Virus record (IMG/VR): IMGVR_UViG_3300015162_000002
Location: 1-37,830 of that record
Length of the DNA stretch: 37,830 bases
Direction: 5' to 3' (one strand)
Source of the DNA: a virus
The position numbers and the translations under genes were made by a program. Below the pieces are notes generated by a model. That model ran no database searches and was not told where the DNA came from. It was given only the letters and a program-made list of their open reading frames with translations. The first letter of the stretch is position 1. The number at the start of each line of letters is the position of its first letter. Below, piece by piece: positions 82-31,756 of this stretch.

Positions 82-303
82 TCACCGGAGTCCGCACATG
101 CCGGCGGTCCCCCATTCGCGCCAGGAGCCGCCGTCCTGCCGGTACACGAGCCACGCCCGGTACAGCTGCTCGCGCGGCGATACAAGATGCGGATACGACG
201 GCCCGCCGACACGCTGCCACGTCGACAGGAGGAACTGCATCCCGCCGTAGTAGCCGTTCCCCGTGTTCGACACCCAACTGCCTTCGTGTTCGTGAACGCA
301 CAC
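82..303 (-). CDS. Short Rpf-like / transglycosylase-like domain protein
   Basis: This 73-aa protein is essentially one resuscitation-promoting-factor or transglycosylase-like fold. The hallmark stretch HEGSWVSNTGNGYYGG is followed by MQFLLSTWQRVGG and by REQLYRAW. The Glu in HEGSW matches the family catalytic Glu, and the domain cleaves the glycan strand of peptidoglycan. No signal peptide or cell-wall anchor is present, unlike host Rpf proteins. The start is uncertain: GTG at 303 gives MCVHEHEG, while a GTG near 349 would add about 15 residues and overlap the upstream HNH gene. It is the last complete gene of the early/integration block. It may act in lysis or in wall penetration, which is inference. 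Confidence 0.7.
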   Translation of the reverse strand: MCVHEHEGSWVSNTGNGYYGGMQFLLSTWQRVGGPSYPHLVSPREQLYRAWLVYRQDGGSWREWGTAGMCGLR

Positions 304-322
304 GGCCTGCGGTAGCCACCAT

Positions 323-814
323 CTAGGAGCCCGCCAACACTTCGGCACGCGTGGAACGATTGCGTGTCTCATCGGGCAGGATGTCGCGTCCGCGCTTGCG
401 CCAGAAGAGGTAGCAAGGTGAGCAGCGGCCTTGCCTGAGCGGCTTGTATTCGCGCTCGCAGTTGCAGCAACTCGTGCGCTTACGCGGACGAGTGCGAGCG
501 GACGCGACGAGCCTGGCGGTTGCAGCTTCCAGCCGTCCGTCGATCGCTTGATGGCAGCGCCGGCAGACGATGAGGATGTTCTCCGGCGTATTGTTTCCAG
601 GGTTTGCGTCGACGTGGTGGCGTTCGGTCTTACTAGTTGCACCGCAACGTTGGCATGGTCCTGTCGTCGGGTAGAGCCTTCGAGCGCGTTGGCGCTTCGT
701 GTGTTCGGACGCGGCATCGCCTTTCCAGGCGCCGTGTTCTTCACCCCAGGGGCCAGAACCGCGGCCAGAGCTGCGACGGATAGGTAGAGCGTGGTTAGGA
801 CGATCGCTAGGCAT
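323..814 (-). CDS. HNH endonuclease
   Basis: This 163-aa protein has an HNH nuclease core: Cys54-x2-Cys57, the HH pair at 66-67, a conserved Asn near 79, then CRRCH at 84-88. A second CxxC pair (CCNCE) and CSPC near residues 115-135 suggest another zinc ribbon. ATG at 814 overlaps the integrase stop by eight bases, so translation is probably coupled; no strong Shine-Dalgarno sequence is visible. Free-standing HNH genes of this type are common in phages as homing endonucleases or DNA-packaging partners. Which role this one has cannot be told. It lies far from the terminase within this window. Confidence 0.85.
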   Translation of the reverse strand: MPSDRPNHALPIRRSSGRGSGPWGEEHGAWKGDAASEHTKRQRARRLYPTTGPCQRCGATSKTERHHVDANPGNNTPENILIVCRRCHQAIDGRLEAATARLVASARTRPRKRTSCCNCEREYKPLRQGRCSPCYLFWRKRGRDILPDETRNRSTRAEVLAGS

Positions 815-7874: not shown

Positions 7875-8080
7875 GGCTTCACCGCGACCGCGCGAGGCTG
7901 CACCTTGAACGCGGCAGGCTTCCAGCTACGCAACGGGACAGCCGCGTACGTTCCCTCGCCGATGTCGAGTGCGGCCTGCGACTGCGCCGAACCGGAACTC
8001 GCGGCGTTGAAGACGGCGACGCGTTCCCACTGGTCGTCTTTGTCGGTGAGCCGGAAGACGAGATAGCTAGTGGCTGCCAT
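7871..8080 (-). CDS. Hypothetical small protein (69 aa)
   Basis: The start is ATG 8080 (MAATSYLVFRLTD), overlapping the stop of the secreted-protein gene as TAATG; the longer upstream frame is a shadow of that gene. The protein looks like a small beta-rich domain (DDQWERVAVFNAASSG, then EGTYAAVPLRSW). Similar short proteins occur in actinophage early regions, but I know no function. No signal or membrane segment is visible. Confidence 0.7.
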   Translation of the reverse strand: MAATSYLVFRLTDKDDQWERVAVFNAASSGSAQSQAALDIGEGTYAAVPLRSWKPAAFKVQPRAVAVKP

Positions 8081-8622
8081 TACGACGCCGCCGTGTACAG
8101 CGCGAAGTGGTTGACGTGGAGCGGCCCGTACTCGGCCAGCGTGACCTTCCACGCCGCCACGTCTTGCACGTCCGCTGCGTCGCCGCCGGAACCGTTCAGG
8201 CCCGTACCCGTCGCGTGCAACCCGTCGGTGTTGCAGATCAGGTGGTAGCCGCCGACGTTGTCCCACGCGTCGTTGTTTCCGAGCGTCGCGGACGGGACGA
8301 ACCAGCCGACACTGAGCTCATGCGGGACGTCTGCCCACTCGAACGCCACCGGCACCCCGCCGAAATGGCTCATGCAAAGGAACGTGTGGCCCGGCTCATC
8401 CACGATCACGGGCGGGGATACATCGGGGCAGCGGCCGGCGGTCGCGTCCGGGAACTGCTCGAGCGCGGCAGCCTGATCGGCGACGTAGTAGCTCGTCCCG
8501 TTATCGCTACAAATGAAGCCGGGGCTGCCTTCCTCCCACGACGACGCCTGAGCGGCCGACGCCCCGACCGCGGCCATCACCACGACATTCAGGACGGCGA
8601 GACAAATGCTGATCCGTTTCAT
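8080..8622 (-). CDS. Secreted protein of the early operon (180 aa)
   Basis: It has a clear signal peptide: MKR, a hydrophobic core to about residue 20, and a likely signal peptidase I site after ASAAQA (residue 26). The mature part has four cysteines (38, 65, 83, 130), consistent with disulfides outside the membrane. It is acidic and aromatic-rich with no known motif. AAGGGAG six bases upstream supports ATG 8622. A secreted product at the head of the early leftward operon is unusual. It could alter the cell surface or block other phages, which is inference only. Confidence 0.8.
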   Translation of the reverse strand: MKRISICLAVLNVVVMAAVGASAAQASSWEEGSPGFICSDNGTSYYVADQAAALEQFPDATAGRCPDVSPPVIVDEPGHTFLCMSHFGGVPVAFEWADVPHELSVGWFVPSATLGNNDAWDNVGGYHLICNTDGLHATGTGLNGSGGDAADVQDVAAWKVTLAEYGPLHVNHFALYTAAS

Positions 8623-12404: not shown

Positions 12405-12641
12405 TCAGACGAGCGTCCAGGCTGTACCGTCGCCCTTCCAGAGCACATGCGTCGCAGCCAGCATCACGACCGCACCCTCCGGCGCCGACGCAGGCAGAAC
12501 ATCGACGAGCGGGACGCGTCCGGTCGCGCTCCCCTGCAGCTGCCGCTCCAACTGGCCGACACGACGCTCGAGGTCGGCGATCTTCTGCGCCATCCTCGCA
12601 CCAGGCGTACCAGGCGGCGGCGCAGCAGGATTCAAACTCAT
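12405..12641 (-). CDS. Small coiled-coil protein (78 aa)
   Basis: ATG 12641 overlaps the stop of the tail-hub gene (ATGA), with GAGG eight bases upstream. After a Pro/Gly/Ala N-terminus there is a short coiled coil (MAQKIADLERRVGQLERQLQ) and then a beta-rich end (VVMLAATHVLWKGDGTAW). It resembles small tail-tip accessory proteins encoded after actinophage minor tail genes. No specific family is recognised. Confidence 0.65.
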   Translation of the reverse strand: MSLNPAAPPPGTPGARMAQKIADLERRVGQLERQLQGSATGRVPLVDVLPASAPEGAVVMLAATHVLWKGDGTAWTLV

Positions 12642-14122
12642 GGGACCAGCCTCGGCGACTCGACAGCCTCACCAGCATCGTTGATGCTGACCGTCACACC
12701 CCAGACGCGGACGCTGCCGTTCAACCGGACGAGCCCTGTCTCGCCGACGATCCGGCACGTCACCCGGTCACCGACGACATAATCGCGGCCGTACACCGGT
12801 GCCAGCGACGGGAACGGCGTCAACGCATACACCCTCTTCGCGGCCGACCGGATCCGGACGTGCGCGATCGCCAACGAATCAAGGAGCGTGTCGACCGTGA
12901 TGTCCGAAAACGTCAACACGTCCTCGTACCGGCTCCGCAACCCCGCCGCCGCGACCTCGTCGGACGCCGCAGCGACGATCGTGGAACCGCCGGAGAGCGC
13001 CCACACATGCGTCGCCAGCTGCGACCGGTCACGGATCCTCGAGTAGCCCGAGCAGTTCCGCTTCCCTGTCCCGTACTCGAAGAACACCGTCGCCGACTTG
13101 TCGGTCCCCGTCGTCGCGGCGAGATCGAGCTGGACGGCGGGCGGCTGCCCGTCGGTGTACCGGAGCGCCCATTCGTAGGAGCCGTCGATCGACCCGAGCT
13201 CCGCGATCGCGTCCAACGCTTTCTTCCACAGGTAGGTGACGTCCTGGCCGACGAATGTGCCGGTGGTGCCGGGGGTGATCCCGGTCGGCATGTCAGCGTT
13301 GACGGCGGCGAGGACAGCGTTGGCGATCGCGCCGGAGTCGGTCGCGGTCTCGACCATCCCGACCCCGGCCGGGTCTTTCCCGACGTACCGGTACCCGAGC
13401 CGCCACATCAGATCGGCCGAGTTCACCTTCACCGACCCGCCCTGCCCCGACCCCGTCTCCTCATCCGACACGATCGGGCCGTAGTGGCGGAGCTTGGTGG
13501 TGGCGTCGTACACCTTCAGCATCGCCTCCGAGTCAGCGATCGCGGCCCACATCGGGTCGTCGGTGCGGATCCGGAACGACGCCGTCGACGGTGACGAGAT
13601 CGCCAGGTCGATCTGCCGGTCGAACGCGTGCGGCTCCCCGAGCGGTGCCCCGTCGAGGTCGGTGATCACGAACCGCCACCGGCCAGAAACGACAGCGACC
13701 GCGACGACTGGAACGTCGGACCATTCGGTGACGAAGTCTTCCTGGTACACCCAGCGGCCGGCGAACGGGCCGACGGCGGTACCGACGGGGCCGACGACGT
13801 TCGAGTAGGCGGCGGCGCTGTTACCGGACGCGTTGGCCGCGACGACGCGGCAGCGGAGAAACTTGGTGCGTTCTCCTGCCCCGATCAGGTAGGCGAGCGC
13901 GTTGGCTGCGCTGACGTCGGTCCAGCCAGTCGTCCCGTCGATCGAGTCTTGCCACTGGTTGACGTACGACGTCGGGCTATTCGAAAACGTCCCTTGCGTG
14001 CTGGTGAGGACTTTCCCGACGGCTGTCGTCCCGGTGGCGGCGGGCGCGACGGTGTTCGCTGGTACCGCTCCACCGGCGAGCGCCTGGAGGGCGGTTAGTT
14101 CAAGGAGCGGCGGTGCGGGCAT
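12638..14122 (-). CDS. Minor tail protein, Gp37-like tail hub with N-terminal Ig-like domain
   Basis: This 494-aa protein has an N-terminal Ig/FN3-like module (about 28-115: GKVLTSTQGTFSNSPTSYVN, then FLRCRVVAANASG) joined to a domain of the ReqiPepy6 Gp37-like siphovirus tail family (RWRFVITDLDGAPLGEP, IDLAISSPSTASFRIRTDD, then DYVVGDRVTCRI near the end). The family forms the ring or hub at the tail tip that holds receptor-binding parts. The Ig module may bind carbohydrate weakly. ATG 14122 immediately follows the stop of a 14-codon mini-ORF. Domain names are by pattern recall. Confidence 0.75.
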   Translation of the reverse strand: MPAPPLLELTALQALAGGAVPANTVAPAATGTTAVGKVLTSTQGTFSNSPTSYVNQWQDSIDGTTGWTDVSAANALAYLIGAGERTKFLRCRVVAANASGNSAAAYSNVVGPVGTAVGPFAGRWVYQEDFVTEWSDVPVVAVAVVSGRWRFVITDLDGAPLGEPHAFDRQIDLAISSPSTASFRIRTDDPMWAAIADSEAMLKVYDATTKLRHYGPIVSDEETGSGQGGSVKVNSADLMWRLGYRYVGKDPAGVGMVETATDSGAIANAVLAAVNADMPTGITPGTTGTFVGQDVTYLWKKALDAIAELGSIDGSYEWALRYTDGQPPAVQLDLAATTGTDKSATVFFEYGTGKRNCSGYSRIRDRSQLATHVWALSGGSTIVAAASDEVAAAGLRSRYEDVLTFSDITVDTLLDSLAIAHVRIRSAAKRVYALTPFPSLAPVYGRDYVVGDRVTCRIVGETGLVRLNGSVRVWGVTVSINDAGEAVESPRLVP

Positions 14123-14167
14123 CTACGCCGCCCAACGCTGCCCTGCGAGATCCAGTAAAGCCGTCAT
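14123..14167 (-). CDS. 14-codon mini-ORF bridging two tail genes
   Basis: ATG 14167 overlaps the stop of the 300-aa gene (TGATG). The frame MTALLDLAGQRWAA ends in a TAG that directly abuts the ATG of the tail-hub gene. It fills the gap exactly, and no separate ribosome binding site is evident for the next gene. It may simply relay ribosomes. Whether the peptide is stable or functional is unknown. Confidence 0.4.
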   Translation of the reverse strand: MTALLDLAGQRWAA

Positions 14168-15069
14168 CAGCAAGACCAGATCTCGTACGCGAGGCCGCCC
14201 CAAGCGTCGTTGGTGGTCGTATTGTCAGGGCCGCCGTACCTAATCCCTGCGGCGGAGGTAACAACCTGGACGGCGTAGGCGGCGTCGTAGGTGTAGCTGG
14301 TGCTGGGTGTGAGGCCGCTGATGATCCCTGACGCTTCTACAGACTGCGCTGAGTTGGCTTGCACGACACCTGGCGCGATCCCCGTGATCGGCGCCTGACG
14401 TGCCTTGACAGTTGCGCCATCCAGGATGCCGAGCAGAACCGATCCTTGCGATGTCGAGAGGCCGATCTGCCCACGGATTCGCCAGAGCACCCTCCCCGAG
14501 GCGGGGGCGGTGAATGTGTGACGCAGGTTCGTCGTGTCCATCGCGGTCATCGCCAGCAGCGCGCTACAGACCTTCGAACTGACTGTAGAAGGGTCGTAGA
14601 CCTTGCCTGCGAGGAGGTTGGCTGTCTCCCACACCTCGAACACGAACGCCCCGTACGCGTCAGCGCCGGCGGTGTCGTTGGGGCCACCGTAGACGAGGTT
14701 CGTGGACGCGATGACGACCTCGACGCCGTAGGCGGCGTCCCAAGTGTACGAGTTGCCGGGGGTGAGGCCGGTGACGACACCGACGATCTCCTGGGCGACC
14801 TGCGTGGTAGCGACGCCGGTGAGGATCTGCCCCATCGGCGTCATCCGCAGCTTGACCGTCGCCCCGTCGAGGACTCCGAGCAGGATGCGCGGGCCGGGGT
14901 CGGCGCCGGTGACAGCGCCGCGCATCCGGACGAGCACGATCCCGTTCGCGGGCGCGGTGAACGTGACGCGCAGGTTGGTTGTGTCGAGCGCGGTCATCGC
15001 GAGCAACGCCGACGTGGCTTTGCTGACCGCCGCCGCGGGGTCGTAGGTTGCGTGTGCTAGTAGCGCCAT
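14167..15069 (-). CDS. Tail protein with two tandem beta domains (300 aa)
   Basis: The protein is an internal duplication of about 145-150 residues. Both halves contain ALLAMTA-DTTNLR-TFTAPA near the start, LLG-LDGATVK in the middle, GLTP-S/N-SYT-DAAY later, and a final YGGP motif with AYGAFVFEVW or AWGGLAYEIW. AAAGGA-like AAAGGAC five bases upstream supports ATG 15069. The repeats look like beta-sandwich adhesion modules of a tail fibre or receptor-binding protein. It lies between the 963-aa depolymerase-like gene and the tail hub. Family not named. Confidence 0.75.
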   Translation of the reverse strand: MALLAHATYDPAAAVSKATSALLAMTALDTTNLRVTFTAPANGIVLVRMRGAVTGADPGPRILLGVLDGATVKLRMTPMGQILTGVATTQVAQEIVGVVTGLTPGNSYTWDAAYGVEVVIASTNLVYGGPNDTAGADAYGAFVFEVWETANLLAGKVYDPSTVSSKVCSALLAMTAMDTTNLRHTFTAPASGRVLWRIRGQIGLSTSQGSVLLGILDGATVKARQAPITGIAPGVVQANSAQSVEASGIISGLTPSTSYTYDAAYAVQVVTSAAGIRYGGPDNTTTNDAWGGLAYEIWSC

Positions 15070-15090: not shown

Positions 15091-17982
15091 TCAGGGGCCG
15101 CCGTAGGCGACGAAGAAGTCCAGCGCCTCCTGGTTCGAGTTGAAGCCGCCGATGAGGTTCAGGTTGCTGTACGAGTGGCCGCCTCCGTCCACCTTGATCG
15201 TCTCCGTCGCCCGGTACGAGACAGTGCAGCCCGTATAGATCTTCTTGTGAAGAGGCAGCGGCGGCCCAGTCCCGTAGTCGAGGACAGTCGATGGTGTCCC
15301 GGAGCAGCCGATCCTCCGGCCGAACCCGACAGCCGAACCCGCCGACGTCGAAGGGGACGGCGGATTCGAATCGCCCGCGAGTTGCGGATCACCAAAATGC
15401 CAGCGCGCAGGCGACCCGGTGTCCTGGTAGCCAACGTCGAGGCAAGCCTGCGAGAACCCGGCCGGGCAGACGCCGCTGTCGTTGGTGCCGTACTCCCACT
15501 GGATCGACACGTTCGTGTTCGCGGCGAGCCCTGCCGCGCCACCAGCGACGTCGGTGAACCCGTTCGCGGTACCGAGGATCGCCGGACAGTTCGCGGGCGA
15601 GCTCTGGCTGCCTCCGAGCGGCCCGATCATCTGCGCGCTTGTCGCGTTGATCGCGGTGAAGTACGACGTGGTGCGCGTGTCGCAGATCAGGTCTTGGGTG
15701 AACGCGCCGCCCTTCGACCCGCCCGCGGCGTAGACGCGTGACGCGTCAATGTTTTCGCAAGGGGCGGCACCCGAGCAGATCGTCGCGTCGAGTACGGCCT
15801 TCACCCACGGTATGTCGTCGCAAAGCTTGTCGACGGTCGATCCGCACGTGTATTGCGGGCCGGGATTGTTGAGCAGCTTCGAGAGTGTGGTCGGGGTCGC
15901 GTACTGGCCGCTGTGGATCGGCGGGATGATGATCTCGACGTACTTGCCCGCGACCGTGCCGTTCCGGAACCCGGCGGTGTCGGGGTCGCCGGTCGAGTCC
16001 GCGAAGACGACGAGGAGCGGCGCGGCCCCGGTGAGGTTGTTCGGCCGATTCACCCAGTAGTTCCGGGTCACCGAGGTAGCGGGGGCGCCGTTCCAATCGG
16101 TGACGGTGATCGACTTGGTGACGATCGTCCCGGCAGTACACGGAGACGGCGAGCAGGTAGCTGTCGAAGCGCCGCCGGTGCCTGCCGCTGTCGCGCGCTG
16201 GTCCGCGCCCGCTTCCGCTATCGCGGCGAGCACGTCGCCGTCGAAGTCCGTCAGCGGGCACCCGAGCCCGATCGTCAGGTTCGCGCAGACGACATAGTTG
16301 TCCGCGGCACCGAGCGCCCCGGTCTTGTGCATGTCGAGACCCGTCGCCGGCGCAGCCGAAGGGTTCACCCATTCCGTGCTACCGGTCGCTGACCGTGCAC
16401 CGCACGGGCCAGTCGGGGTGGCCGTCGGGAAGACGTTGTAGTCGTAGTTGAAGGTGACGTTGGAGACGCCCGGAGCCCCGGACGCCGTGCACCCGATCGT
16501 TGCGAACGTCGTCTGGTTCTCCATCAGCATCGGCATGTCGTTCCCGTAAATGTTGAAGACGGTGCCGGGCTTGGCTCCGCTCCAGCCGATCATCAGCATC
16601 TGCGCGGGGCTTTCGTTGAATCCGACGTTCCAGGTGCCCGAGATCGTGTTCGTGCCGTGCCCGTCGATCGACAGGAACCCGTTGCACTGGCCGGCGATGT
16701 TCGTGCTCGTGTTGCCGACGATGTTGAAGTCGCCGTTGAACTCGTTCGCGAGCCCGGACGGCTGGATCTCGATGTCGGTGCACGCGTTCCCGTAGAACCG
16801 GTTCCGGAGAATGTCGATGTACTGCGCACCGAAAATCTGAATCGCGTCGGCGTGGCAGGCCGCGGCGTTGCAGATCGCTTCGGGTGCGGCACCGAACAGC
16901 GAGACCGGCCACTGTGCCGGGTCACGGAGGTCTGCGTACTGGAACAGGTTGTCGATGATCGAGTCGTGGCAAGCCTGGGTGCTGCATGAAGCGGTCGCGG
17001 TGGTCGGCTTCCCGATGCTCACAGCGACGGGGCTACCAGGGATCGAAAGGCCGCAGCAGGAGCCGCCGAAGATGTTGTTAGGCCCGATCTGCCAGTACTG
17101 CGCCTCGTGCAGGTTGATGAGCCTCGAGCCGCCGTCGAGTTTCCCGACGTCGATCTGGTTGTTCGTGAGCGTGACGTGCTGAGACTGAGCGGTTGAGATA
17201 CCGGCGCCGACGTCGTCGATGACGACGTAGTTGCCGCCACCGATGGTCTGGTAGCTGTTGAGCACGAACCCGTCCCAGGTGACCCACGACTGGCCGCGCA
17301 TGTCGATCGTGAACGTCGGCGTCGTCGCCTGGATCGTCGCGCACCCGTACGTTGCTGCCCGGAACGTCGTCATCCCGATCTTTGCTGCCGCGGAGAGCGT
17401 CTGCGCGTCATAGGTGCCGCACTTGAAGCGTACGAGGTCGCCGGCGGTAGCAGCAGCCTGGAAGGCCACGTTCGCGCTCGAGCAGGCCGCCGCGTCAACA
17501 TAGGCAGCACCAGCGCCACCAGTTCTCGTGCAGGTGCCGCCATTCTGGTCGACCCACAAGTTCGCGAGCCCAGGTGTGCTCCCGACGTTCGAGACAGCCA
17601 CCGACTTAGCCCTGGACGCTTTCGCGTTACCGGCGGCGTCCCTGCCGACCGCGGTCACGACATGGGTCGCGTTCGACACCGTCGTGGAATCCCAAACGAT
17701 CGAGAACGGGGCCGTCGTGTCCTCCGCACCAACCGGGGCACCGTCGACGAGGAACTGGACGCCGACACAGCCGACGTTGTCGCCGCACGTCGCAGCGAAC
17801 GTCACCCCGCCACCCGACACCGACGCCAGATCGTTCGGGGACGTCAGGAACAGCGACGGCGGCGAAAGGTCCGGCGTGTTCCCCGACCCGACGATCGCGA
17901 TCCCCGCCCCCGCAACGATCACGGCGGCGACAGACGCGATGATCGTCCCGTGCCTGCGCCTGATGACGCGACGGCGGGGCAC
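15091..17982 (-). CDS. Ig plus beta-helix plus esterase protein (963 aa)
   Basis: Order of parts: basic N-terminus and a hydrophobic segment (IIASVAAVIVAGAGIAIV, 14-31); an Ig-like domain (about 40-130, ending TAVGRDAAGNA); a right-handed beta-helix/pectate-lyase-like region (about 140-560, with many N/G turns); and a C-terminal alpha/beta hydrolase resembling feruloyl esterase or PHB depolymerase. In the last, the nucleophile elbow is AAGGSKGG, a likely acid region is EYGTNDSG, and a His is in GGGHSY. Many Cys pairs suggest an extracellular state. The start is GTG 17982, one base past the previous stop. It probably cleaves or deacetylates a surface polysaccharide. A membrane anchor is odd for a virion protein. 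Confidence 0.8.
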   Translation of the reverse strand: MPRRRVIRRRHGTIIASVAAVIVAGAGIAIVGSGNTPDLSPPSLFLTSPNDLASVSGGGVTFAATCGDNVGCVGVQFLVDGAPVGAEDTTAPFSIVWDSTTVSNATHVVTAVGRDAAGNAKASRAKSVAVSNVGSTPGLANLWVDQNGGTCTRTGGAGAAYVDAAACSSANVAFQAAATAGDLVRFKCGTYDAQTLSAAAKIGMTTFRAATYGCATIQATTPTFTIDMRGQSWVTWDGFVLNSYQTIGGGNYVVIDDVGAGISTAQSQHVTLTNNQIDVGKLDGGSRLINLHEAQYWQIGPNNIFGGSCCGLSIPGSPVAVSIGKPTTATASCSTQACHDSIIDNLFQYADLRDPAQWPVSLFGAAPEAICNAAACHADAIQIFGAQYIDILRNRFYGNACTDIEIQPSGLANEFNGDFNIVGNTSTNIAGQCNGFLSIDGHGTNTISGTWNVGFNESPAQMLMIGWSGAKPGTVFNIYGNDMPMLMENQTTFATIGCTASGAPGVSNVTFNYDYNVFPTATPTGPCGARSATGSTEWVNPSAAPATGLDMHKTGALGAADNYVVCANLTIGLGCPLTDFDGDVLAAIAEAGADQRATAAGTGGASTATCSPSPCTAGTIVTKSITVTDWNGAPATSVTRNYWVNRPNNLTGAAPLLVVFADSTGDPDTAGFRNGTVAGKYVEIIIPPIHSGQYATPTTLSKLLNNPGPQYTCGSTVDKLCDDIPWVKAVLDATICSGAAPCENIDASRVYAAGGSKGGAFTQDLICDTRTTSYFTAINATSAQMIGPLGGSQSSPANCPAILGTANGFTDVAGGAAGLAANTNVSIQWEYGTNDSGVCPAGFSQACLDVGYQDTGSPARWHFGDPQLAGDSNPPSPSTSAGSAVGFGRRIGCSGTPSTVLDYGTGPPLPLHKKIYTGCTVSYRATETIKVDGGGHSYSNLNLIGGFNSNQEALDFFVAYGGP

Positions 17983-17984
17983 CG

Positions 17985-18392
17985 CTACAGCTCGCCTTCG
18001 TATGCGATCTTGATGGTGAACCCGTCGACCGTCAGCGGACCGTTCGAGACCGCGTCATAGGCGACGCCTCCGCCGACGATGTCCTGGATCGCGACCAGCT
18101 TCGCGCCGCCGACCGCGGGGTCGTCCGTGGAGACGATGATCGCCACCGCGGTCGTGTCGGCCAGGCCGGGGAAGCTCATCGCGCCGCAGTCGATGGTGCG
18201 CGCCACACACGTCCGCCCCGTCGCGCTCAACGCCACCGTACCCGCCGTCTTCGTCAGCATCAACAACGTCATCGACGGGTCGACGTCGGCTTCGCCCTGG
18301 TCGCACTTCCAGAACCACAGCTTGTTCGCGGTCGGGAGACCGGCGAGACCCGAGTTGGTGATGAGGTCGACGCCCTCGTTGAAGTTCCGCAC
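17985..18392 (-). CDS. Hypothetical tail-region protein (135 aa)
   Basis: The chosen start is GTG 18392 (MRNFNEGVDLITNSG), nine bases after the previous stop; the longer frame overlaps the upstream gene. The protein is beta-rich with Ala, Val and Thr (LLMLTKTAGTVALSATGR, then AVAIIVSTDDPAVGGA) and ends FTIKIAYEGEL. It has several Cys. It is probably a small tail-tip or fibre-associated subunit by position between two tail genes. No family is recognised. Confidence 0.7.
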   Translation of the reverse strand: MRNFNEGVDLITNSGLAGLPTANKLWFWKCDQGEADVDPSMTLLMLTKTAGTVALSATGRTCVARTIDCGAMSFPGLADTTAVAIIVSTDDPAVGGAKLVAIQDIVGGGVAYDAVSNGPLTVDGFTIKIAYEGEL

Positions 18393-18400
18393 CCCAGCGC

Positions 18401-19342
18401 CTACGCCTTCGTGATCTTGATGTAGCCGGGTAAGTACGCCCCAACACCGCCGGTGCCTGCGATGATCGTGCCGTCTGCAACGCCACGCCACGCCCGCACC
18501 GAATACGTGTGTGCAGCAGCCGACGGAGTAAGCCGCCGCGACAGGCTGGCCGGGCTTACAGACCCCGCCGCAGCCGAGTTGATGAGGTCGCCAATCAACC
18601 CAATCGACGCGGCCCCGTCGTAGAGCGCGAACACGACCTCCGCCCCAACCGACGTCGCGAGGATGACCTTCGGCGTGAAGAACTCCACATTCACCGCGGT
18701 CGCCCCGTCGAAGGTGACAGCGGGCGCGGTCACGATCGTGTTCGCGGTCGCCTCCGTCGTCGCGGAGATCGTCACCGGAGCGGTAAACTCGGTGTAGGCG
18801 AGTTCGGTGCCAGGCGCCGGCGAAGCCAGTGTTAGCTTCGGCCGCACCGTCGTGTCGATGTTCGCGGTTGTGATCGACGCCGAAGCCGCCGGGATCAGAA
18901 TGTTCGCGAGGAGCAGCTGGCTGTTGCCGACCGCCGCGGCACCGGTCAGGTTCGCGAGCGTCGCCCCCGACGTCGCCGTGCCGGTGAGGATGATGAAGGC
19001 TTCGTCGTTGGCCGCGTCACCGTGGAACGCGTCCCTGACCCGCAACACGACCCGGTCTACCCTCGGCAGCGTCGCGTGCGACGCCGTGAACCCCGTCAGG
19101 TTCACCGTCGCGTCGTTGTAGGCCAGATACATGCCCTGGAACGCGACGCTGTCGCCCTGCACCAACGCCTTACCAGCCGCGATGTCGGTCGACATGTTCG
19201 CCCCCGCACCCCGCTGGGTCACGGCCATGTCGCCGGATCCCTGAACGCCTTCGGAAGTCAAGAGCGCCGAAACGAAACGGCGAAGGTCGAGAGAGGGCAT
19301 GTTCACCTGCTCCCAAGGGGCAGATGTCACGCTCAGCGCCAT
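18401..19342 (-). CDS. Minor tail / baseplate-like protein (313 aa)
   Basis: ATG 19342 has GGAG five bases upstream and overlaps the HNH gene stop. Residues about 35-170 match a common phage tail module: MAVTQRGAGANMSTDIAAGK, YLAYNDA, then PRVDRVVLRVRD and GNSQLLLANILIPA. The C-terminal half is a jelly-roll-like beta domain (FTAPVTISATTEATANTIV through YLPGYIKITKA). Such proteins form the lower tail tip of siphoviruses that infect actinobacteria. No enzyme motif is visible. Confidence 0.75.
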   Translation of the reverse strand: MALSVTSAPWEQVNMPSLDLRRFVSALLTSEGVQGSGDMAVTQRGAGANMSTDIAAGKALVQGDSVAFQGMYLAYNDATVNLTGFTASHATLPRVDRVVLRVRDAFHGDAANDEAFIILTGTATSGATLANLTGAAAVGNSQLLLANILIPAASASITTANIDTTVRPKLTLASPAPGTELAYTEFTAPVTISATTEATANTIVTAPAVTFDGATAVNVEFFTPKVILATSVGAEVVFALYDGAASIGLIGDLINSAAAGSVSPASLSRRLTPSAAAHTYSVRAWRGVADGTIIAGTGGVGAYLPGYIKITKA

Positions 19343-19896
19343 GCGAGCTCCTCAACCAGCCGAGTTCCCTTGCTCAGGTTGCAGAAGCCATGAGCGACAG
19401 CGATGTTGTCCTCGCTGTGAGCGCCGCCACGCGAGAGAGGCACGACGTGGTCGAAATGCAAGTCCGCGGGTTCCACCGGATCGCCGCAGAGATGGCACAA
19501 CATCTCGTCGCGCTCGCGGATGCGCTGATAGTCGACTCGGTCAACCGTGGCCGCGACCAGCCGCGCACGCCTTCGAGCACACTTCTCGCGGTGCTTCTCG
19601 GGATTCGCCTTGACCCACCGCGCACCCCGCGCCTTCGCAATTTCAGGATGCCGTCCAGCCCACGCCTTCCGGATCGCATCAACCTTGGAACGATTCCGCT
19701 CGTAGTAACGGCGGTTGGCATCAAGGACAGCAGTCTTGTTCGTGGCGTACCGCGTGCGCGCGTACTCCCTTGCATGGGCGTTGGCGCAGTCGCGACACCG
19801 CGAGCGCACTCCCAGCGACTTCCTCGCGTCCTTGTGGAAGGCCACCAGGGGCTTCGTCTCACCGCATTCGGGGCACGACTTGGCAGGGAGCGTCAT
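19333..19896 (-). CDS. HNH endonuclease inside the tail gene cluster
   Basis: This 187-aa protein has an N-terminal zinc ribbon (CPECGETKPLVAF ... CRDCAN), a long basic helical linker, and a C-terminal HNH core: CHLCGD, FDHVVPLSRGG, then SEDNIAV and FCNLSKG. The catalytic His is in DHVVPL. It is a free-standing homing-type endonuclease, probably mobile, inserted between the distal tail protein and a minor tail gene. The start ATG 19896 carries start-associated motif 3. Its stop overlaps the next gene by ten bases. Confidence 0.9.
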   Translation of the reverse strand: MTLPAKSCPECGETKPLVAFHKDARKSLGVRSRCRDCANAHAREYARTRYATNKTAVLDANRRYYERNRSKVDAIRKAWAGRHPEIAKARGARWVKANPEKHREKCARRRARLVAATVDRVDYQRIRERDEMLCHLCGDPVEPADLHFDHVVPLSRGGAHSEDNIAVAHGFCNLSKGTRLVEELAWR

Positions 19897-27981: not shown

Positions 27982-28025
27982 CAGACGCCGACCTTTCGAC
28001 TCGCTATCGGGTGGACGTAGATCAC
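27981..28025 (-). CDS. 14-codon mini-ORF between fibre and 63-aa genes
   Basis: GTG 28025 overlaps the fibre stop (GTGA), and its own TGA overlaps ATG 27981 (TGATG). The predicted peptide is MIYVHPIASRKVGV. It bridges the gap exactly and has the same 45-base length as the mini-ORF at 14123-14167. It may serve only to carry ribosomes on. Confidence 0.4.
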   Translation of the reverse strand: MIYVHPIASRKVGV

Positions 28026-31000
28026 GACACGCCCTCCCAGACCGCTATAGGCGATCCCGAGAAAATGATCGTGGCGTTCGTGGGAAGGTCGGTCTGGCCG
28101 GTCTGGACGCCATAAGCCCCCATACCAGATCCGATCGCTCCACTCGCAGCGGCCAACTTCGTCGCCGACGCGACAAACGGAAGTGTTGACGCCTTCGAGA
28201 TAACGGCGACGTAGTAGCCGTCGTCTGTCGGCACGGTGTACGGGGAGATCATGGCGGGATTCTTGATCCCGGTGGTCTGCCACGCTGTCCCCTGGTCAGC
28301 CGAGACAGCGAGTCGCGATCCGGCTTTGCTGTAAAGGCCGACCTTCGACAGCGTCACCGTCGCGCCTAGCGTGGCGACGACGACCGCGAGGTTGGCGACC
28401 ACTTCCCCGGCCAGCAGCGTGACCTTCATAAAGTACGCCGTCCCGTCGATCATGATCGTGGAGCCGTTAATCAGTTCGCGCGGGTACGTCTCCGTGATGA
28501 GTCCTTCGGCTACAAGTCCGACGTCGTATCTCGACTTCGGCCGTGACCACGCACCCGTCCCGTCCATGTAGTGGACTGCGTTGTTGTCGAGCTTCTTCAG
28601 CAGCCCGTGAAGGGCCGTGGTTGCGTTCAGCGTTGTGACGTCGGTCGGTGCGGCGAGCTCGTCGAGCTTGATCGCGTCCGAACCACCAGATTTGTGCTGG
28701 GTCGCGTGCGTCTGCGCTGCGACATCGGTGCCGATCACAGTCCCGGCCGCAGTCCGCATCGCGGGCGCGTCCGCGAGCGCCAGTAGTGAACGACCGAACG
28801 ACGTGGTGGAGAGCGCCGCGATCGCCGTCAGATCCGAGTCGACAGGCTGGGATGCCGCCTGCGCAGCAGCAGCCGCGCCCGCAGCGTCGAAGTCGCCGGT
28901 GTTGTTGACCGCCGCCGTCCCAAGTCCGGCCGCCGTACGCAACGCGGCGGCGTTCGCGAGTGCGAGCAGCGACTGGCCGAACGACGTCGTAGAGAGAGCG
29001 GCGATCGCGGTGAGATCGGAGTCGAGCGGTTGCGATGCAGCCTGGGCCGCGGCGGCCGCGCCTGCCGTGTCGAAGGCCGTTGCTGCGCTCGTCGCTGCGG
29101 TACCGAGACCGGCCGCCGTACGCATCGCAGCAGCATCGGCGAGCGCTAAAAGAGCGCGCCCGAACGACGTCGTTGTGAGAGCCGCGATCGCCGTCAGGTC
29201 GGAGTCGAGCGGCTGGAGGGTCGCGTCCGCCGCCGCCCGTGTCACGGCCTCCGCGGTAAGTGCGGCCTGCGTCGCGGTAGCTATCGAGTGGTCGGTGATG
29301 GTGCCCGTTCCGCCGGTGCCGGCCACGCCGTTGTAGAGCGTGTTGACGCCGAACAGTTCCACCGTCACCCCTGTACCGGCGAAGACGCCGTAGGTCTGGG
29401 TGGGGATCCCGACGAGCTCCTGCAACGCGAGATTCGTGAACGTCATCGTCCACCCGTTCGTCAAAGTCTGTCCGACGGTGTTGGAGAAGAACTTGACGAT
29501 GGCCGTAACGAACGCGGCGTCGGACGGGGCGGTAAACGCGAACGCGACATGGGTCGTCCCGGTCGTAACGGGTGCTGGCGTCGACCCGTTCTGGATGCCG
29601 TTCGTGGCAGCCGACCCGTCGGACTTGTAGAACCACAGCGATGCCACGGCGTTCGCGCCGGAAGGCGCGGTACCCAGAGCCGCATCTGCGACCATCTGGT
29701 AGAAGTGGCCCGGAGTGACCGCGACCCCGGAAACCCCTGTGGCGGTTCGTCCGACTGCGCCGGTCGAAGTACCGTTCGCTGTGACCGTGAGGACTGCGGC
29801 GGCCCCGGATACACCTGATGCGCCAGCAGCAGCCGACCAGCCAGCCAGCGTGCCTGTGTACGCGTTCGAGGGGAGCTTCTGCGCGTTCGACGGTGTCGCG
29901 TACGCGGGGACGTCGCCGAGGTTGCCGCCAACGATGAGGACGCGTTCGGGGAACCGGAACTCGGAGCCAGGCCCCACATTCGAGGTGGCCTCCGGATTGA
30001 TAAGGGTTATCAGTGATCCGACTGCGACGCCGGCGGTCATGAAGATGTCGTAGAAGCCGCGGCCCGCGCAGAGCACCGCCCGCGGGTTGACCAGGGTCAT
30101 GCCTGCCGCCACCTGATAACCGACCCCTGGGTTCGATCCGACGACACTGTGAAGCGACGTAAGGGACGCACCCGACACGTAAGCGTCACGGATGATGCAG
30201 CCGGGGAACGCGAAGTCGTTTCCGCCGATGCGTGTCCCTGAGCCGCCGCCGGTGACTCGCATCCGGTTGATCGTGACGCCGGACACCGATCCGGTCCCGA
30301 TGTTGTAGTTCGGAACCCACCCGTCGGCGCCGCCCTCGGCTTGCACCGAGTCGACGAGGATGTTCCGGATGGTGTTGTCGTGCGCGACGGTGTAGAACGC
30401 TGCGCAGGGAAAGCCTGAGTCGCCGTTCGCGTACGCCTCCAAGCAGTGGACGTCCTCGCTCGTTCCCGGCTGGGCGTCCATCTCGATCCGCAAAGCAACC
30501 CCGCCGTCGCAGGAGACACGCTCATACACGCATTGGCTGCCGGCGGTGTGCTGCACGCACGACGATCCGATACCGCGCACGTTCGAGTTGAAGATCGGGC
30601 CGACCGTGAACCGGCGGGCCTGTGCGCCGAGGCTATTCGCCCCGACCTGGAGCACGTTTCCTGTGGCGCCCGGCAGCCCGACACCTTTGAGCGACTCGAT
30701 CGACCAGTCCTGGCAGTTCAGCGCCATCACGCCGCGCGGCACAGTGTTCGTCGCTGGGATCGTCAACTCCGTCATGTCGATCGTGAGCAAACCGTGGAAG
30801 TGGATGTCCTCCAGGTACGACGTCGACGGTGACGCAGTCATCAGCCGGAACGGCGCCACGTTCGTCGTCTTGTAGTACGGCATCTTGAAGACCGCGCCGG
30901 GGCCGAAATACACGTTGGTGTGCGATTGGATGTACCAGTCCGCCAAGAAATAGGTGCGGACGCCGGGGAAGAAGAAGTCGCCCGCGCCGAGCGCGAGCAT

Positions 31001-31756
31001 GGCGGCGGTGTCGTCGGTCCCGTACACGCATGTCGCGCCCGTGACGGTCGTGGAAGCGTTTGTGTCCAAGGTCGCTACCCCACCCGACACCGACGAGATC
31101 GCCGCGATCAGCGTCATCGAGTTCGCCGGGTTGAGCGACCAGCCCTCCACGGCGAAAACCGCTTTGGCGGAGATAGCTCCGGCAGCAACATAGGTGACGC
31201 CGTTGTAGGTGACGAGGTCGTAGGCGGCATACGTGGCGGCGGGATCCCAGGCACCACGATTGTTGTACGCGGCGCCCGCACCGACGACCTGCACCCGCAT
31301 CCCGACATGCGCCTGCGTGAACGGTGTACCCGGCGACGACAATGCAGCGGCGCCAGAAGCGATTGCCGCGTCAGTGATCGTCACGACGTCGCCCTTCACA
31401 CCCCGGTCGAGAACATTCACCACGAGAGCTGCAAGACCGTCTTCGACGTCGGTCAGCGTCTTCGCGGTGATCGTCGCCGCGATCTGATCCCCGACACCGA
31501 TCGCACGCGCGCTCGAACCCTCCTGCGCCCGCACGATCGTAAACACGTCACCCCCAGGCGGACCCGCCGTCACCCGGACAACCTCAGCGTTCGACGCTAA
31601 AGGCGCCACACCCCTAGGCCACACCGTCGCGTTGAACGGGACAGCCGGAAACAGCGCACCACCACCCGCCTGCACCGTGAGCGACACACCCGACGACGCC
31701 GGTGAAGGCGCGGCCGCGACAGTCGAGTACGAGAAGTTTTTGTGCGCGTCAGGCAT
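28022..31756 (-). CDS. Large beta-helix fibre protein in the head module (1244 aa)
   Basis: The N-terminal ~130 residues (VSLTVQAGGGALFPAVPFNA) look like a virion anchor. A CBM5/12-like insert (AWDPAATYAAYDLVTYNG) and a right-handed beta-helix (about 240-620) follow, then a beta sandwich (about 640-780), then 2.8 copies of a 61-residue stalk repeat (about 846-1006, LDSDLTAIAALxTTSFG). The tail-fibre motif HKSGGSDAIKLDELAAPTDV and a beta C-terminal domain end it. ATG 31756 abuts the preceding TAG. It lies between capsid and connector genes, unusual for a tail fibre, so it may be a head fibre. No catalytic residues are claimed. Confidence 0.8.
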   Translation of the reverse strand: MPDAHKNFSYSTVAAAPSPASSGVSLTVQAGGGALFPAVPFNATVWPRGVAPLASNAEVVRVTAGPPGGDVFTIVRAQEGSSARAIGVGDQIAATITAKTLTDVEDGLAALVVNVLDRGVKGDVVTITDAAIASGAAALSSPGTPFTQAHVGMRVQVVGAGAAYNNRGAWDPAATYAAYDLVTYNGVTYVAAGAISAKAVFAVEGWSLNPANSMTLIAAISSVSGGVATLDTNASTTVTGATCVYGTDDTAAMLALGAGDFFFPGVRTYFLADWYIQSHTNVYFGPGAVFKMPYYKTTNVAPFRLMTASPSTSYLEDIHFHGLLTIDMTELTIPATNTVPRGVMALNCQDWSIESLKGVGLPGATGNVLQVGANSLGAQARRFTVGPIFNSNVRGIGSSCVQHTAGSQCVYERVSCDGGVALRIEMDAQPGTSEDVHCLEAYANGDSGFPCAAFYTVAHDNTIRNILVDSVQAEGGADGWVPNYNIGTGSVSGVTINRMRVTGGGSGTRIGGNDFAFPGCIIRDAYVSGASLTSLHSVVGSNPGVGYQVAAGMTLVNPRAVLCAGRGFYDIFMTAGVAVGSLITLINPEATSNVGPGSEFRFPERVLIVGGNLGDVPAYATPSNAQKLPSNAYTGTLAGWSAAAGASGVSGAAAVLTVTANGTSTGAVGRTATGVSGVAVTPGHFYQMVADAALGTAPSGANAVASLWFYKSDGSAATNGIQNGSTPAPVTTGTTHVAFAFTAPSDAAFVTAIVKFFSNTVGQTLTNGWTMTFTNLALQELVGIPTQTYGVFAGTGVTVELFGVNTLYNGVAGTGGTGTITDHSIATATQAALTAEAVTRAAADATLQPLDSDLTAIAALTTTSFGRALLALADAAAMRTAAGLGTAATSAATAFDTAGAAAAAQAASQPLDSDLTAIAALSTTSFGQSLLALANAAALRTAAGLGTAAVNNTGDFDAAGAAAAAQAASQPVDSDLTAIAALSTTSFGRSLLALADAPAMRTAAGTVIGTDVAAQTHATQHKSGGSDAIKLDELAAPTDVTTLNATTALHGLLKKLDNNAVHYMDGTGAWSRPKSRYDVGLVAEGLITETYPRELINGSTIMIDGTAYFMKVTLLAGEVVANLAVVVATLGATVTLSKVGLYSKAGSRLAVSADQGTAWQTTGIKNPAMISPYTVPTDDGYYVAVISKASTLPFVASATKLAAASGAIGSGMGAYGVQTGQTDLPTNATIIFSGSPIAVWEGVS
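28740..29220 (-). repeat. 183-bp coding repeat of the fibre stalk
   Basis: About 2.8 tandem copies of a 61-codon unit, each with LDSDLTAIAALSTTSFG-type and MRTAAGLGTAA-type segments. Period 183 bp with some divergence between copies. Such repeats form trimeric stalks and can change copy number by slippage. Confidence 0.8.

Follow-up and report, generated by a model that had tools for sequence, protein, structure and literature searches.

Within a window of 37,830 nt, the whole of IMG/VR virus record IMGVR_UViG_3300015162_000002, we found a gene whose 963-aa product (P0001) joins a hydrophobic N-terminus, an Ig-like domain, a right-handed beta-helix and a C-terminal alpha/beta hydrolase. We give roughly an even chance to the reading that this protein is a Sec-exported, disulfide-bonded surface enzyme produced late in infection, and not an ordinary tailspike. 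Polysaccharide-degrading phage enzymes are usually treated as virion parts; a recurrent family with an export-type start, conserved cysteines and a place in structural-gene clusters would indicate a separate strategy, in which the host surface is remodelled from within, here in the context of a soil phage.

Architecture of the three-part protein

The coding strand of P0001 is the minus strand, and the ends of the reading frame match 15091-17982 exactly. Its parts are given below, where A1 denotes a bacterial-only esterase alignment and A2 a phage alignment.

15091-17982, minus strand: full open reading frame of the three-part protein, 963 aa, GTG start, stop at 15091-15093
17881-17982, minus strand: residues 1-34, a basic n-region (MPRRRVIRRRHG) and then a hydrophobic segment of ~20 residues
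17650-17859, minus strand: Big_7 Ig-like domain, residues 42-111 (Pfam PF17957, E 5.6e-13)
16195-17571, minus strand: right-handed beta-helix, residues 138-596, ending in ...AGADQR (fold match; 40% identity to the relative L071)
16846-16854, minus strand: H377-x-D379 in the motif CHxDxI, with HxD/ExI/F in all four relatives as aligned by eye
16078-16194, minus strand: linker, residues 597-635, joining helix to esterase; from here on, L071, L072 and G004 have no counterpart
15094-16077, minus strand: CE1/LpqC-type alpha/beta hydrolase, residues 636-963 (NF050058, profile and fold match)
15715-15717, minus strand: Ser756, nucleophile of GGSKGG (754-759), invariant in A1 and A2
15478-15480, minus strand: Asp835 of WEYGTND, proposed acid, invariant in A2, with a predicted strand just before it
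15175-15177, minus strand: His936, the proposed base in GGGHSY, with no variation in A1 or A2

A chance reading frame on either strand was rejected, and the plus-strand antisense frames opposite the gene, none of which is supported, are a by-product of a 66% GC reading frame. Chimeric assembly was likewise rejected, because GC3 is uniform (0.84-0.90 across all modules, the capsid and tape-measure genes being alike), the domain boundary lies in frame and the downstream cassette mate is intact.

The earlier note, made from the sequence alone, had described a hydrophobic N-terminal segment, an Ig-like module, a right-handed beta-helix, a C-terminal serine hydrolase with a GGSKGG elbow and a richness in cysteines, and these were recovered in our analysis. 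The mean Kyte-Doolittle value over 19 residues from residue 14 is 2.53, which none of 5000 composition shuffles reached. The Ig-like module is Pfam Big_7, matched along the full profile (1-70) at 49.8 bits against a curated cut-off of 24.1, and the relative L071 carries the same domain (E 6e-21). The helix was recovered by fold matching only, from a low-depth AlphaFold2 model of low confidence (pLDDT 38.6): a second-look alignment over residues 139-573 returned almost only right-handed parallel beta-helix proteins at Z 11-14.6. Pfam Beta_helix gave a hint only (E 0.19-3.3), Foldseek with this low-confidence model gave no match at E <= 0.001, the helix sequence profile matched no solved helix in the PDB, and the helix had no sequence match among PHROGs. 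The H377-x-D379 region is a candidate active-site face with a putative catalytic role.

P0001 contains 30 cysteines (3.1%); this phage's capsid, tape measure and Dit proteins have 0-2 each and also lack such an N-terminus. Between its helix and that of L071, 15 of 16 cysteines are kept at 42% identity, and the cysteine content of the family is compatible with disulfides, though not proof of them.

The C-terminal domain is detected by NF050058 (type-1 short-chain PHA depolymerase) over residues 639-957 with E 3.4e-10, and many other alpha/beta hydrolases score near it; a profile built from eight bacterial relatives, with the query left out, still detects the domain. The low-depth AlphaFold2 model (pLDDT 44.9, pTM 0.52) matched the acetyl xylan esterase 9j08 best, and 9j07 likewise (Z 15.9, 221 aligned residues, rmsd 3.6 A; Foldseek E 2.4e-7), with other alpha/beta hydrolases trailing by about 1-2 Z; a viral structure library returned weak alpha/beta-hydrolase matches only. 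The hydrolase fold on which the earlier note had staked its reading was therefore found, while its narrower naming of a feruloyl esterase or PHB depolymerase holds for the CE1/LpqC neighbourhood and not beyond it, since the score falls below the family cut-off and the HG oxyanion motif is absent. The Ser, Asp and His positions fit the family by sequence, the Asp and His regions lying in low-confidence parts of the model (pLDDT about 23-54). Asp835 is the probable acid only, because A1 and the eight-relative profile alignment place LGTANG at that position.

Like the CE1/LpqC group (NF050058; AoAXEB 9j07/9j08; the Lihuaxuella PHB depolymerase 8daj), the domain has the same alpha/beta hydrolase order, a G-x-S-x-G elbow, the Asp/His motifs, some conserved cysteines and a C-terminal GGGH. 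Unlike that group, it scores 39.9 bits against the NF050058 cut-off of 150, carries long insertions around the acid strand, is fused to a beta-helix and is phage-encoded, and it reads VFADSTG where the relatives have VFHGxGG. With HG replaced in this way, esterase activity could be low or lacking. A binding protein without catalysis, exported as an adhesin or decoy after helix and hydrolase had both lost their activity, would agree with the missing oxyanion motif, with the candidate status of the helix catalytic residues and with the adhesin PfbA among the beta-helix fold matches; we consider such a non-catalytic binder very improbable, given that Ser, the probable Asp and His are all retained and that the HxD/ExI motif persists in four diverged helices.

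Relatives of the helix and the surrounding cassette

A degenerate DNA pattern for the helix cap had no match in its tight form, while a looser form led to two viral contigs, those encoding L071 and L072. The protein L071 (G318, 47 kb) has the N-terminus, Big_7 and helix as in P0001, with 40% identity over 569 residues (E ~1e-111), and ends at AGADQR, the exact residue where P0001 enters the linker and esterase. L072 (G319) has the helix as well as a hydrophobic N-terminus and a Thr-rich linker. A fourth member, on a contig with a related terminase (G004), was detected by its N-terminal hydropathy and cysteine content. These homologous contigs are metagenomic. The esterase is missing from all three relatives, and the most parsimonious account is its gain, as an add-on module, in the lineage of the window; the sharp helix/esterase boundary is a direct case of module gain, and base composition shows no shift at the join. 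The helix domain seems to define a small family of cysteine-rich phage proteins, not named before, with an export-type start.

PHROGs do not include this helix family, and tblastn did not detect it in about 50,000 annotated phage records: searches with P0001, its esterase, L071, L072 and the 14167-15069 product against 50,697 phages returned nothing. Peptide patterns drawn from full-length P0001, its esterase or its helix found no close relative in viral contigs, nor did esterase patterns in genome contigs. A plasmid search gave only an Ig match, and none for L072, and P0001 is absent from three terminase-related phages (G006, G008 and G009). Among 298 genomes of Gemmatimonadota we found distant esterases and no helix relative, which says nothing about the true host.

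On the minus strand, the genes run in the order terminase, portal, protease, capsid, a 1244-aa spike-like protein, tape measure, Dit and P0001, followed by two structural-type genes, small membrane proteins, a probable endolysin, an integrase and a transglycosylase. The genes that bear on P0001 are as follows.

17985-18491, minus strand: small gene upstream of P0001, its TAG 2 nt before the P0001 GTG; its own start is uncertain
14167-15069, minus strand: downstream gene of 300 aa with two beta-rich repeats, a cassette member, 61% identical to G318 13659-14558
12638-14122, minus strand: second gene downstream, an N-terminal Ig-like module and a ReqiPepy6 Gp37-like tail protein (PF14594, E 1.3e-4)
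28022-31756, minus strand: spike-like protein of 1244 aa, with a CBM5/12 hint and weak pectate-lyase and tail-fibre matches

An HNH endonuclease (19333-19896, minus strand; PF01844, E 8e-12) also lies among the tail genes.

G318 also has the Ig-like module of the second downstream gene (51% identical across 94 aa). Although the two phages share genes in the P0001 region, no similarity is seen between their head and packaging genes; since the downstream gene and the Ig module are common to both, the group seems to travel as one unit. In G318 and G004 too, the helix-family genes lie among structural genes. In G004, the slot comparable to that of the spike-like gene, upstream of the tape measure, is occupied by the fourth export-type helix protein. 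Two minus-strand stretches of the same contig (L040, 9326-10183 and 12995-14416) encode proteins built from copies of 'YxKTGAGVxxLYATGAK', an unusual repeat that flanks the helix cassette.

The integrases of the window and G318 are 47% identical, which suggests related hosts for the two phages. The window also encodes an Rpf-type Transglycosylas domain (82-744, minus strand; PF06737, E 4e-13), from which an actinobacterial host (Actinomycetota) may be inferred. At ~920-985 on the minus strand, the integrase gene ends (3') in GGAGGGATTCGAACCCTCGATTCC, which is complementary to a tRNA-Ser-like 3' end, and this sequence is the probable attP.

Export, virion attachment or metabolic role

In the window, 2 nt separate the start codon from the stop of the small upstream gene, and the distance is -1 nt (a 1-nt overlap) in G318 and 2 nt in G004, a spacing of the translational-coupling kind. 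As it is kept in three phages, the N-terminus of P0001 is not mis-called; later in-frame starts, which would cut the hydrophobic segment or Big_7, were rejected as well. P0001 combines Sec-type traits, namely a positive n-region, a hydrophobic core and a supported start codon, and as a cleavage site it offers VGS-GN, acceptable at best, in place of a textbook AxA. Residues 1-34 are predicted to be a signal peptide or an uncleaved signal anchor, the export character of all N-termini here being judged by hydropathy and sequence pattern only. The hydrophobic segment is also present in L071, L072 and the G004 protein. An N-terminal mean hydropathy of at least 1.8 (over 19 residues) together with 3.1-3.3% cysteine is found in four of four family members and in one of 124 other proteins of at least 250 aa from ten annotated contigs (Fisher p 5e-7, which is indicative only, as the proteins are related, the G004 member was noticed by these features and the cut-offs were set once the data were known).

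P0001 might instead be a virion-associated depolymerase, a tail or neck appendage with its hydrophobic N-terminus packed in the virion, whose helix would cut and whose esterase would deacylate the capsule at adsorption. The gene does sit between Dit-proximal genes and the Gp37-like tail protein, its next two neighbours are shared with the structural region of G318, the helix matches include many tailspikes (Depo32 at Z 14.6), and esterases do occur in phage structural clusters (L069). We nevertheless find this reading less probable than export: neither the basic-hydrophobic N-terminus nor the conserved cysteines resemble what this phage has in its capsid, tape measure and Dit, and a separate spike-like gene exists, set between the capsid and head-tail connector genes, whose product has no export signal. 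A search for a virion-adaptor profile at the N-terminus of P0001 found none, although such absence is not proof; the basic-hydrophobic stretch is followed by Big_7.

P0001 was also compared with phage tailspike depolymerases (Klebsiella Depo32, 7vz3; Acinetobacter Fri1 gp49), which it resembles in its tail-gene neighbourhood and in a right-handed beta-helix of similar length. In contrast to them, it has an export-type N-terminus, ~3% cysteine that is mostly conserved and an esterase fusion, and its helix has no sequence match to theirs or to other solved helices or PHROGs. A beta-helix near tail genes does not warrant a tailspike annotation by default.

The earlier note had wavered between a virion enzyme with an odd start and a secreted enzyme. 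We lean to export because the N-termini and cysteines recur in four diverged relatives, the start is conserved and a conventional spike gene stands apart. On the other side, P0001 is encoded within the tail cluster, and the L069 esterase, in a structural cluster, has an annotated start with no export signal.

If P0001 is an exported surface enzyme, its basic/hydrophobic N-terminus would take it out through the host Sec route, and it would fold outside the cytoplasm with many disulfides, either membrane-bound or released. Its gene lies within the late structural cluster, which makes synthesis late in infection likely. The Ig domain may serve as a spacer or binding module, the beta-helix would bind and probably cleave polysaccharide, and the CE1/LpqC-type hydrolase may strip acetyl or feruloyl-like acyl groups from that polysaccharide. 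The one-step removal and deacetylation of polysaccharide proposed earlier is a reasonable supposition. Stripping the coat and matrix of the infected cell might free the progeny, keep them from sticking to debris and open neighbouring cells. We further entertain, tentatively, a wider possibility: a family of Sec-exported, disulfide-stabilised helix enzymes, borne on cassettes among the late operons of unrelated soil phages and in some cases extended by a catalytic module such as the esterase, that would remodel the coat of the infected cell in favour of progeny release and block re-adsorption.

The folds of the phiNIT1 enzymes are not known to be related to those of P0001, and acetyl-esterase tailspikes have other esterase folds. 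A precedent for free phage enzymes is given by the capsule-lytic soluble enzymes of phiNIT1, reported to be released at lysis (PMC9863714); P0001 shares with them the proposed role of a free enzyme stripping the coat of neighbouring cells and differs in its predicted export signal. Acetyl-esterase tailspikes (Vi01-type; the structural deacetylase of Acinetobacter phage Aristophanes) deacylate surface polysaccharide (reference in PMC9863714). Deacylation by a phage would be common to both, in P0001 as a prediction, but those tailspikes are virion proteins, whereas P0001 carries a CE1-type hydrolase.

An auxiliary metabolic gene would be another explanation, with a pectinase-like helix and a feruloyl/acetyl-xylan esterase secreted onto plant polymers and feeding the lysogen in soil. 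It would fit the integrase of this phage, the nearest solved hydrolase (an acetyl xylan esterase/feruloyl esterase) and the hydrophobic, secreted-type N-termini carried by bacterial relatives of the esterase. We regard it as unlikely, because the gene lies in the late structural cluster and not beside lysogeny genes, its cassette mates are phage-type and three relatives have no esterase.

Esterases and secreted proteins in other phages

The open-access literature yielded no description of a phage feruloyl esterase, and the open-access titles and abstracts returned hold no account of the P0001 architecture, subscription papers being outside the scope of both searches. Motif patterns in IMG/VR recovered a few CE1/esterase-like phage proteins. 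For example, the CE1-type esterase of an unrelated phage contig (L067) has a clear signal peptide, while the L069 esterase lies with a portal gene; exported-type and structural-cluster arrangements therefore both exist.

Other proteins of these kinds were also noted. On G320, a CE1 esterase with a signal peptide (L081, 8203-9653, minus strand) is immediately followed by a second, small signal-peptide protein (MKRLLAIAFLVFSFTTSVYA). Two large viral-contig proteins (L063 and L064, frames of 1539 and 1467 aa) combine esterase, cellulase-like and PTPTP-linker modules. In the window itself, a 180-aa protein (8080-8622, minus strand) with a textbook signal peptide (MKRISICLAVLNVVVMAAVGASAAQA), five cysteines and no Pfam or PHROG match is probably a second secreted phage protein.
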